From positions 1 to 46,228 of IMG/VR virus record IMGVR_UViG_3300042914_001987: a DNA stretch of 46,228 bases. One strand, 5' to 3'. This document shows positions 8,994-29,590 of this stretch, in pieces. A program made the translations under genes and the position numbers. Below the pieces are notes generated by a model. It was not told the origin of the DNA, did not search any database, and saw only the letters and a list, made by a program, of their open reading frames with translations. Position 1 is the stretch's first letter. Each line of letters opens with the position of its first letter. This stretch comes from a virus.

Positions 8994-9162
8994 TCATGGC
9001 CTCCTTCTTCTTGGTGGCAGGAGCAGCGGGGGCCTGGGCCTCAAGCTTGGAGATCTTCTCCTGAAGTTCGCGAATGGCCGCCTTCAGCTGATCGACGTGC
9101 TGAATGAGTACCTTTGGCGAGTAGGACGTGTACGACGGAAAGTTGGGGGGAATCTCAATCAT
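8986..9162 (-). CDS. Small coiled-coil protein (58 aa)
   Basis: The frame starts at an ATG that forms ATGA with the stop of the primase-helicase gene and ends inside the start of the DUF6321-like gene. The product begins MIEIPPNFPSYTSYSPKVL and continues into a heptad-like helix (HVDQLKAAIRELQEKISKLE, residues 22-41), then a Pro/Ala/Lys tail. The overlaps on both sides and the clean helix support coding. It may be an accessory subunit of the replication complex, but nothing in the sequence proves that. Confidence 0.8.
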   Translation of the reverse strand: MIEIPPNFPSYTSYSPKVLIQHVDQLKAAIRELQEKISKLEAQAPAAPATKKKEAMNG

Positions 9163-10892
9163 GCTAGTGCTTCAAAGACCTTTGTGGGGTCCATTTTACT
9201 TGGAGATGCAGACGGATCAAAGAGAATCTCGCCATCTTCGTTGATGGCAAACGGCACCTCTACAAGGCGCCCCGTCTCATAGTTGTAGTTCAGAGCAGTG
9301 GCGATGCCTGACTGACCGGTGAACCGGTTCTTCAGGACACGCACCACAGTAGTGTTGGCCGTCATCTTGTCGGTATGCTGACGATCGCGCTCGAGTGCGA
9401 TGACGGTGTTGGGAACGGACGACAGGCTACCTGAGCCTCGGAGATCCTGCACGGTGATGCGTGCGCCTTCCTCGTAGCCCTTCCCAGTGCTTGGCTTGCG
9501 GAGCTGGCTGATGACGTCGAGATGGACGCCGGTGCGCTCCACGATGGATCTGAGCTTCTTCATCATGTCGTCGATGATCAGCCGCTCGGATCCGCCGTCT
9601 TCCGAGTCAGAAAGCATGCCAGCGACCGCAGCCGTGATGTGATCGAGGATGACCACTTTGCACCCAAGTCCCACAGCCATATACTCAATCCGCGCGAGGA
9701 GATTGTCGTATCCGCTTGATCCCATGTGATCATAGATGTACAGGGGGAGGGAGTCGACTGTCGTTCGAGCTGATCGGTATTCGTCTTCGGACAGTGTGGC
9801 ATCGAAGTCTGCATTGAGCGGAGCCTTTCCTGTATTCTCCCTAAGTTGGTTCAAAGCCTTGAAGGCAAACGTACGCCTGACAGGCTTGTTGACGAGAAGG
9901 GAGACGATGTCGTCAACGGTCTCTGCGGGGGACTCCTCGAGCATGATCATGCCGACAGGCCTGTCGTTGAACAGGTGGTGCATGGCCAGCTCTCGGATGA
10001 TGGTCGACTTACCTGAGCCAGTACCTGAGGTCCACAGGGTGATCTCGCCGCCGCGCTGACCGATCAGATAGTCGGTAAGCGCTGGCCACGGGAACTCCCA
10101 AACCTCGGTCGATGCGTGCTCGCCCTGCGGGACGTCCTTGACGTGGAGGATGCCGTCAGGACGGTAAGCTTGGGCTTCCCACAGGCAGGTGATTAGCTGA
10201 CGTGCCTCGCCAGCCAGCCACATCTCGTTGGCGTCCTTGCGTGGCAGGGAGGCGATCTTGGCCTTGCCGGGTGGCAGGATCTCAGCCACTTGCTTGGCGG
10301 CTTCGCGTCCTGGTTCGTCGTTGTCGAAGCACAGCACGACCTCGTCGTATGAGGAGACGAAGTCGTAGTTGGTCTTGATCGCTGCGGCGGCACCTGCAGC
10401 ACCGGTGGGCAGACTGACGACAGGCCACTTGCAGTCCTGAGCCTGAGCGATAGTCAGGCAGTCGATCTCACCCTCGGTGATGACGAGCCGCTTGCCGCCG
10501 ACGCGCCAGAGGTGCTGGCCAAACAGCGGAGGAGCGGTCATCTCGCCGAGGCATGAGAACTTCTTGCCGGTGCGTCGGATCTTCTGTCCGATCAACTTGC
10601 CGTCGCGCCAGTACCCCGCGATCTCCGAGCCATCGGAGCCGACTAGGTAGTTGTAGTGACGGCACGTGTCCGCAGACAACTTGCGGTGCGGCAGGTCCTT
10701 GATCTCGCCTGATGACATTGGGCTAGACATCCTGGGTACAGCCTCCCGCACGGTCGAACCGTGCTCGTAGTGGCCACATGCGTGGCAGTACTTGTGTCCG
10801 TCGTCGTAGACACAGAGGTTGTCACCTCTTGTGTCTCGTCCTCTTGCTGCACAGCTTCCGCACCTTTCCCGATGCGATAGTCTTGATGACAG
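9159..10892 (-). CDS. Primase-helicase (T7 gp4-like), probable non-ATG start
   Basis: It contains a TOPRIM domain (LVITEGEIDCL, then VVLCFDNDEPGREAA), a DnaB-type helicase with Walker A (SGTGSGKST), Walker B-like VVILDHITA and a C-terminal ring helicase core. The first ATG/GTG start is a GTG at 10751 (530 aa), which would remove the zinc domain. The open frame upstream encodes CGSC, then CVYDDGHKYCHAC, the two Cys pairs of a primase zinc-binding domain. No ATG, GTG or TTG precedes them, but a CTG at 10892 follows a GGAGGTG ribosome site by the right spacing and gives 577 aa, close to T7 gp4 (566). The first part overlaps rusA by 71 bases. Confidence 0.9.
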   Translation of the reverse strand: MSSRLSHRERCGSCAARGRDTRGDNLCVYDDGHKYCHACGHYEHGSTVREAVPRMSSPMSSGEIKDLPHRKLSADTCRHYNYLVGSDGSEIAGYWRDGKLIGQKIRRTGKKFSCLGEMTAPPLFGQHLWRVGGKRLVITEGEIDCLTIAQAQDCKWPVVSLPTGAAGAAAAIKTNYDFVSSYDEVVLCFDNDEPGREAAKQVAEILPPGKAKIASLPRKDANEMWLAGEARQLITCLWEAQAYRPDGILHVKDVPQGEHASTEVWEFPWPALTDYLIGQRGGEITLWTSGTGSGKSTIIRELAMHHLFNDRPVGMIMLEESPAETVDDIVSLLVNKPVRRTFAFKALNQLRENTGKAPLNADFDATLSEDEYRSARTTVDSLPLYIYDHMGSSGYDNLLARIEYMAVGLGCKVVILDHITAAVAGMLSDSEDGGSERLIIDDMMKKLRSIVERTGVHLDVISQLRKPSTGKGYEEGARITVQDLRGSGSLSSVPNTVIALERDRQHTDKMTANTTVVRVLKNRFTGQSGIATALNYNYETGRLVEVPFAINEDGEILFDPSASPSKMDPTKVFEALA

Positions 10893-11262
10893 GTTCCACC
10901 TCCACGAAGATGCGAGGATCGTTGTCGTCCTCGCAGTATTCCTTGAAGACCGCCAGCTGCATGATCTGATCGTCGTCCTCCCACATCACTCCGTTCAGGC
11001 TGTCAAGGACTGCCTTGGCGTAGTTGTCCACGTCTCCGCGTGGGTAGGGACGTTCAGTAGTCTTCGGCTTTCGTACGAAGCACAGCACGGTGACCATGAG
11101 GGGGCCCTCCATCTTGGTGAAGGACCCCCTGTTCTTGGCCACGATCTCCTGCATCTCGGACTTGAACTTCCGGTAGGTTGGAAGATAGTACGTGCCGTAT
11201 TTAGACACACGGGCACGCGAGGCCGGTACAGGGTCGATGAAGAATGTGAATGACTGTGCCAT
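10822..11262 (-). CDS. RusA-type Holliday junction resolvase
   Basis: A 146-aa homodimeric nuclease that cuts four-way DNA junctions. The family signature is clear at residues about 70-95: RGDVDNYAKAVLDSLNG, then WEDDDQI, which holds the catalytic Asp residues. The N-terminus (FFIDPVPASRARVS, YLPTYRKF) also fits. T7 uses endonuclease I in this role. The gene starts as TGATG on the SSB stop. The 3' end overlaps the zinc-domain coding part of the primase-helicase gene. Confidence 0.93.
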   Translation of the reverse strand: MAQSFTFFIDPVPASRARVSKYGTYYLPTYRKFKSEMQEIVAKNRGSFTKMEGPLMVTVLCFVRKPKTTERPYPRGDVDNYAKAVLDSLNGVMWEDDDQIMQLAVFKEYCEDDNDPRIFVEVEPVIKTIASGKVRKLCSKRTRHKR

Positions 11263-28367: not shown

Positions 28368-29285
28368 TTAGTCTTGAACAGTAGTAGTAGATCCTGCTAC
28401 TGCGTTCTTTCTGAAAACAGGACGGGTAGCTACGAACCCAGGGCGCCAGGCGTGAACCGACATTCGGCTTACGCGTATGTATCCTGGGGTAGCTGGAACA
28501 GCCGCTGTTTCACGGACCTCGACACCCCAGACAACAGGGCCTTCTCCAGGTCGACTATGAAGTTCGGCCTTGGCGGCGGTGGCAACAATTGGAATCTTGT
28601 TGTTGGTCCAAGGTCCAGTGCTTGCCCTCCAACGTGCGGACTCGCCACCACCTGAGATTTCCATCACAAAGTTGGTGAACGTTCCTGATGTCAGTCCAAG
28701 ACTGGTATCCTTGGTGATTACCGCTGGAGTAATACCATCGCCTGGATTGTTGTTTCGCATCACGATGGCACGCCAACTGGATGTATTGGATGATGCCCAA
28801 ACTCCAAACATTCGCTCGTATCCAACAAGCGAGATATCGGTAGCGTGGCTTCTTGCAAGACCAAGAAAGTAAAGACACTCAGTTGATAAAGAAGCAACGC
28901 GAAGACGACACTCCATCAAGGTTCCATACAACTGAGGTTCCCTGTGCCTGGCGACATTACTGAAAGGAGCAAGGTGGTTTCCGTTGTCTCGAAGCGACGC
29001 ACGACCGTTGGTGTTGTTAGCGCCAAGTCCTGCATAGTCACCACCCCAAACTTCAACGGAATTAAAGCCAGGAAGATATTGGATGCTTCCACCTGGGATG
29101 GCGGTTGCATTTTCATTGGCAAATGTCCAGTCAGACCAAGTTTCCGCCCACCAGCCCTTGTCTGCCCATCCCGGATTGTTCGGAAGACGGATCGCTGCAG
29201 TACAGCGAGCTGCGTCGGTGCCGCCAAACACGGAAGAGTTCGGATTCTTGAACAGCGCGTATTGAATGGCGGCGATGACGCTCAT
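28368..29285 (-). CDS. Virion structural protein, lectin-like (305 aa)
   Basis: Chosen start is the ATG at 29285 (MSVIAAIQYALFKNPNSSVF), which forms ATGA with the previous stop; the longer frame runs into that gene. The body is beta-rich, with Trp, Asn and Gly (GWWAETWSDWTFANENAT, MECRLRVASLSTECLYFLGL, TFTNFVMEIS), a pattern like concanavalin/laminin-G-type sandwiches of phage adhesins. Place between the small and large terminase genes suggests a late virion protein that may bind surface glycans. Confidence 0.75.
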   Translation of the reverse strand: MSVIAAIQYALFKNPNSSVFGGTDAARCTAAIRLPNNPGWADKGWWAETWSDWTFANENATAIPGGSIQYLPGFNSVEVWGGDYAGLGANNTNGRASLRDNGNHLAPFSNVARHREPQLYGTLMECRLRVASLSTECLYFLGLARSHATDISLVGYERMFGVWASSNTSSWRAIVMRNNNPGDGITPAVITKDTSLGLTSGTFTNFVMEISGGGESARWRASTGPWTNNKIPIVATAAKAELHSRPGEGPVVWGVEVRETAAVPATPGYIRVSRMSVHAWRPGFVATRPVFRKNAVAGSTTTVQD

Positions 29286-29590
29286 AGGAGTGCCACCGTT
29301 ACGGTAAGGGTCTCTCCACCTGCAGCGTTTACGTAGCCGACGCGGTAGAAGTGACAGCGGGGAATGAGCTGGATAGTTCCTGAGACAGTCGAGGTCAGGT
29401 CCGACCAAGCCGCAGTTTCCGTCAGCTTGCCCTGAACAGTGACCACAGGAGTAGTGCTGTTGCAGTTGATCTCGACGGGAATCATCACGCTCTGCGGATT
29501 GGTGGCAGGCTTAACGGCAACCGAAGAACCGTAAGTCGGAGTTGCTCCAGCGGTCAGACCGGTGCTTGAAAAGATTGTTTGATTTCGCAT
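29282..29590 (-). CDS. Small beta-rich structural protein (102 aa)
   Basis: Begins MRNQTIFSSTGLTAGATPTY, then strands such as SVMIPVEINC and VVTVQGKLTE, ending AAGGETLTVTVALL. It is rich in Thr, Val and Ala without helices or membrane spans, typical of capsid decoration or fibre-attached proteins. Coupled by ATGA to the 305-aa gene, so the two probably work together. No family recognised. Confidence 0.7.
   Translation of the reverse strand: MRNQTIFSSTGLTAGATPTYGSSVAVKPATNPQSVMIPVEINCNSTTPVVTVQGKLTETAAWSDLTSTVSGTIQLIPRCHFYRVGYVNAAGGETLTVTVALL

Follow-up and report, generated by a model that had tools for sequence, protein, structure and literature searches.

Where translation of the full-length primase-helicase begins is the question raised by a virus genome in which the zinc-binding domain of this protein is encoded ahead of any usual start codon. 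The stretch of DNA analysed, hereafter the window, is the 46,228-base IMG/VR virus record IMGVR_UViG_3300042914_001987. Its gene set is T7-like and includes a single-subunit RNA polymerase, an exonuclease, a gp2.5-like ssDNA-binding protein and a RusA-type resolvase, as well as a primase-helicase, a family A DNA polymerase, a terminase and head and tail proteins. The primase-helicase frame runs on the minus strand from a TGA stop at 10988 to a stop at 9159, and standard start rules yield a 530-aa protein from GTG 10751. An earlier note on this DNA held that a four-Cys zinc motif is encoded ahead of that GTG with no ATG, GTG or TTG before it. Reading of the frame confirmed this: none of these three codons occurs among the 41 codons of the primase frame between the upstream stop and the first cysteine of the motif (Cys1).

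The predicted protein carries an N-terminal four-Cys zinc domain and, together in one chain, a Toprim primase and a DnaB-type helicase domain (PF13155, PF21268, PF03796; phrog_239). The closest solved structure is T7 gp4 (6n7i, E 5.2e-99). The match to PHROG family 239 (DNA primase/helicase) begins at residue 35 of the stop-to-stop frame, which is three codons past a CTG at position 10892, codon 32 of the frame. The features of the locus are listed in Table 1.

Table 1. Features of the rusA and primase-helicase locus in the window
Feature	Coordinates	Strand	Supporting evidence
Full-length primase-helicase as proposed from CTG, T7 gp4 type, 577 aa	9159..10892	-	phrog_239, E 5.5e-167; T7 gp4 in PDB, E 5.2e-99
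Proposed CTG start codon	10890..10892	-	Matches ATG of L005/L006; also present in L002 and L014
Shine-Dalgarno-like GGAGGTG, 4 nt before CTG	10897..10903	-	Duplex with 16S tail, -11.3 kcal/mol
Zinc-binding domain motif CGSC-x21-CHAC	10776..10862	-	Sequence, relatives, pS/pN
rusA-type Holliday junction resolvase, 146 aa	10822..11262	-	PF05866, E 2.9e-22
Candidate short helicase-only form from ATG 10730, 523 aa	9159..10730	-	GGGAGG 11 nt upstream
GTG used as start by the standard ORF list, without ribosome site	10749..10751	-	

The four conserved cysteines are those of CGSC (10862-10851) and CHAC (10787-10776), which are 21 residues apart and in frame with both GTG 10751 and CTG 10892. The earlier note had correctly named CGSC; the Cys before VYDD in CVYDDGHKYCHAC, which it also counted, is not among the conserved four, as the second pair is CHAC. 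Loss of the motif from this frame in relatives, an objection that the same note had foreseen, was not borne out, and IMG/VR relatives keep the zinc pattern in frame, for example L003 (MSKVVTRERCGSCAARGRDTSGDNLCVYDDGHKFCHACGHY, 86% identity). Over the 37 codons from Cys1, the window and L003 differ in the primase frame by 16 synonymous and 7 non-synonymous changes (pS 0.70, pN 0.08), whereas pS is lower than pN in the other two frames. Comparison with more distant relatives gave pN of 0.13 to 0.37 and pS of 0.47 to 0.93. Since the relatives keep the pattern and synonymous changes dominate in the primase frame only, the motif is evidently not a chance occurrence; judged from these comparisons, the zinc domain is real coding sequence and is under purifying selection in the primase frame. 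A direct alignment with T7 gp4, also when made with a profile, reached only the second Cys pair because of the longer spacing between the Cys pairs here.

These comparisons also bear on whether the zinc domain could be a relic, with only a short zinc-less helicase being made. Such a reading would account for the lack of a canonical start and for the existence of an internal ATG with GGGAGG, but purifying selection on the zinc codons extends past the rusA stop, where the comparison with L003 gives pS 0.94 and pN 0.11, and all four cysteines are kept in 9 of the 9 rows of alignment A1. We consider a relic highly improbable.

The full-length, zinc-bearing primase-helicase very likely starts at CTG 10892, inside rusA. 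Initiation at this codon was one of two routes put forward in the earlier note and is well supported by comparison, namely the ATG alignment, the strong ribosome site, the three contigs that carry it and the recurrent loss of ATG at this position in other lineages. The GGAGGTG that the note had described as well spaced does lie four bases ahead of the CTG. In L005 and L006, which are 74-76% identical to the window, an ATG stands exactly at the CTG position, 10 codons ahead of Cys1 (MSSKLVERERC, against LSSRLSHRERC in the window). The second residue is Ser in the 12 rows compared around the start, a hand-chosen set that left out L007, L015 and L016, where the ATG is elsewhere and the second residue is not Ser. 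A strong Shine-Dalgarno (SD) sequence at the CTG is found in the window, L008 and L012.

Other near-cognate codons, such as ATC and ACG, are present upstream in the frame and one of them might serve as the full-length start instead. However, in the primase frame the window and L005 are identical at 6 of 10 residues after the CTG and at only 2 across the ten codons that precede it, in-frame stops lie just upstream in L005, L008 and L012, and by eye GGAGGTG at a short spacing was seen only for the CTG among these codons. A start at another near-cognate codon thus appears improbable. The earlier note had also cautioned that a sequencing or assembly error might hide an ATG, and the window is indeed a single metagenome-derived record. 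Conservation in relatives weighs against this, as both the CTG and its ribosome site are repeated in L002 (99% identity) and L014 (98%), from other data sets and metagenomes, and an ATC start described below is likewise repeated in L010, L011 and L020. Since L002 and L014 have the CTG too while departing from the window at other positions, an error is extremely unlikely.

The second route proposed in the earlier note was a programmed frameshift from rusA, by which the zinc domain would be made as part of a RusA-primase fusion. The two genes do overlap, and the context of the rusA stop, AGG TGA C, is one that we take to resemble a +1 shift site. A +1 shift at this stop, however, would enter the primase frame past CGSC and so lose the first CxxC. 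The rusA-primase relation is of frame class 2 in the window group and of frame class 1 in the ATC-bearing relatives L010 and L020, where the opposite shift would be needed; as the frame classes differ, one shift cannot serve both, and the constant frame relation expected of programmed frameshift genes is absent among the relatives. Furthermore, rusA ends before Cys1 in L010, L012 and L179 (14 nt before it in L010 and L020), and in seven relatives (L003-L007, L015 and L016) an ordinary ATG lies within the overlap. Frameshifting is therefore not retained as the origin of the full-length protein, and we regard it as very unlikely.

The proposed start at the CTG was placed in a wider context by a survey of at least 466 loci from viral contigs, many of which were repeats of one contig. 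Those without a primase match (26) or without the first zinc pattern (65) were left out; among the latter, 17 were excluded as truncated at the 5' end, and re-reading of the other 48 added 18 distinct rows, besides repeats and the single contig to which both L073 and L192 belong. With loci of identical sequence around the start counted once, the loci listed contained 207 distinct primases, 189 showing the main zinc pattern and 18 a variant of it; L105, which is cut before its start, was included as not lacking one. A primase was classed as non-canonical if no ATG, GTG or TTG occurred in the 40 codons ahead of Cys1, and rusA was classed as overlapping or abutting if its stop lay later than 36 nt before Cys1.

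Among the loci listed, 7 of the 207 distinct primases were without a canonical start. They form four lineages at 90% identity, comprising the window with L002 and L014 (CTG), L010 with L020 (ATC), L012 (CTG) and L179 (CTG), so that CTG is found in three lineages and ATC in one; L011 is a copy of L010. The ATC start site reads ISKVTHRKPC where L003 has MSKVVTRERC. L012 and L179 are represented by one contig each, and L179 lacks a ribosome site ahead of its CTG. All seven fall within the 30 rows with a rusA that overlaps or abuts the primase start, against none of the 177 others (Fisher 7e-7 by row, among the loci listed). Counted by 90% lineage, the figures among the loci listed are 4 of 20 against 0 of 115 (Fisher 4e-4); three of the four lineages share one clade, and when these are collapsed to one the association with rusA becomes weaker (p 0.017).

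In a tree built from the helicase portion, the CTG group of the window nests with the ATG-bearing pairs L003/L004 and L005/L006, and the placement of L179 on a long branch is unsure. As the CTG group is nested among ATG-bearing relatives, repeated loss of ATG is the simplest reading; we infer from this a direction of change in which the CTG would have taken the place of an ancestral ATG at a start embedded within rusA. The CTG and its ribosome site are also present in L008; there, however, an ATG follows three codons on, and the CTG may for that reason be unused. No relative in a cellular genome was confirmed among 8 stretches matching the pattern, and a DNA pattern search for more contigs with the CTG arrangement returned 4 stretches, all from contigs already known.

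The survey yielded further observations on this family. Seven full-length primases (L187, L188, L230, L150, L462, L021 and L132) have a GTG or TTG as the sole nearby start, most of them without rusA overlap. Zinc domains in which the His that usually precedes the third Cys is absent, or the last Cys pair is wider (CFGMGC), occur in L094, L098, L142, L154, L187, L188, L205 and others. The contig of L073 and L192 encodes a related primase-helicase (L073 3120-4790) with six TAG codons in frame that gives a full conserved protein if TAG is read as Gln, and this phage probably reassigns the amber codon.

The tail of rusA overlaps the primase by 71 nt. The Pfam RusA domain stops at residue 123, just ahead of the codons that contain the CTG. 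The codons for the last strand of the domain, Val-Glu-Val, are GTG GAG GTG and provide the ribosome site, the CTG spans the following Pro-Val codons (CCT GTC), and the tail past the domain is zinc-domain DNA read in the other frame. In the near-identical L003 and L004, rusA ends 71 and 14 nt past the start of the Cys1 codon, respectively, and these different stops within the overlap suggest that the tail of rusA can vary freely.

In the mechanism that we propose, the full-length, zinc-bearing form would initiate at CTG 10892, the codon being decoded as fMet by the ordinary initiator tRNA, and the strong GGAGGTG would partly compensate for the weak codon. Ribosomes translating rusA would pass through this start or end close by, so that translation of rusA and the primase is probably coupled. 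A helicase-only form would probably arise, as in T7, from a second start at ATG 10730, behind the zinc domain. Two additional elements were considered and rejected. ARAGORN finds no tRNA in the window that could be a phage-encoded special initiator. An mRNA hairpin is predicted over the ribosome site in the window (z -2.06), but in a 26-row comparison, which used mononucleotide shuffles and in which the row for L036 had a wrong start, starts were no better folded than the shuffles.

With regard to the short form, no ribosome site was found for GTG 10751, whereas ATG 10730 has GGGAGG eleven bases upstream, which gives the window a second in-frame start with a ribosome site after the zinc domain. 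Across 94 lineages, an ATG with an SD of at least five bases was present in the 40 codons that follow the zinc motif in 25%, compared to 0-7% in eleven other 40-codon stretches; the contrast is weaker for an SD of four bases (43% against 1-34%). The ribosome site for a short form is weak or lacking in L010/L020, L012 and L016, and L003/L004 have only a GTG in the stretch after the zinc motif. Both forms are annotated in the Desulfovibrio phage record ProddE. On these sequence data, a short helicase-only form is plausible, and it more likely starts at ATG 10730 than at GTG 10751. The T7 gp4B-like short form suggested in the earlier note is accordingly kept as a candidate, with its start moved from the GTG, which has no ribosome site, to the better-placed ATG.

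An essential replisome protein would in this case start at a codon outside standard ORF rules, and since standard ORF finding rejects CTG, the annotated primase in such phages would be missing the zinc domain with which it reads DNA. That ATG has been lost repeatedly within a single gene arrangement provides a natural experiment, in which one can ask how overlap and ribosome-site strength allow near-cognate starts to persist and whether the start codon tunes the ratio of primase to helicase. One possible function, which we put forward tentatively and consider rather doubtful, is control of primase dosage. The buried ATG would have given way on several occasions to CTG or ATC, which are very weak starts, thereby reducing the full-length primase relative to the internally started helicase and tuning the proportion of primase-bearing and primase-free subunits in the ring, with the strong ribosome site and the coupling to rusA setting the level. 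Elsewhere in the window, on the minus strand at 28368-29510, a 346-aa ORF is called from TTG 29408, a codon without a ribosome site; the more probable start seems to be a Met further inside the frame (MSVIAAIQYALF).

The constituent parts of this arrangement are of known kinds, and what is new is that the start of a replicative primase, lying within rusA, is non-canonical in several lineages. No published report of such a primase start was found in the open-licence literature, which is weak evidence of absence. In T7, gene 4 gives gp4A (63 kDa) and gp4B (56 kDa) in equimolar amounts; the short form starts from codon 64, lacks the zinc domain and retains helicase activity (PMC9198812). The window has the same domain order of zinc-binding, Toprim primase and ring helicase, and likely a start after the zinc domain as well. 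It differs from T7 gp4 in its proposed full-length start, a CTG inside rusA, and in the 21 residues between its Cys pairs. The gene upstream is a RusA-type resolvase in the window, while in four annotated T7-like records an endonuclease I or gene 3-type resolvase occupies that place.

Coupling of an upstream gene to a nearby start is known from the M13 gene V-VII pair, and in a V-VII reporter in E. coli the level of IF3 influences both re-initiation and the use of non-canonical codons (PMC2268962). The window resembles that pair in having its downstream start close to the upstream stop. Unlike in the reporter as described there, which used AUG, the stop of rusA lies 71 nt beyond the proposed start of the primase. 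According to a second-hand statement in PMC11983097, CTG works poorly as a start codon in E. coli, at about one-tenth the level of TTG, which counts against the proposed start. CUG initiation complexes have been the subject of a structural study with a variant initiator tRNA (PMC11497404).

The nearest experimental precedent is the rep gene of the FIB group (F-plasmid family), whose CTG start with GGAGG is backed by mutation and N-terminal data; changing the CTG to CTC abolishes function, and databases often show the gene from a downstream GTG (PMC11983097). The FIB gene encodes a plasmid initiator, and the portion of PMC11983097 that we drew on describes no gene overlap. The start in the window, in contrast, overlaps rusA, and whereas the FIB CTG is backed by experiment, the CTG here is proposed from sequence comparison. 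In both cases, a replication gene has a CTG, established in FIB and proposed in the window, behind a GGAGG-type site, and a downstream GTG is taken in its place by the databases or by the standard ORF list.
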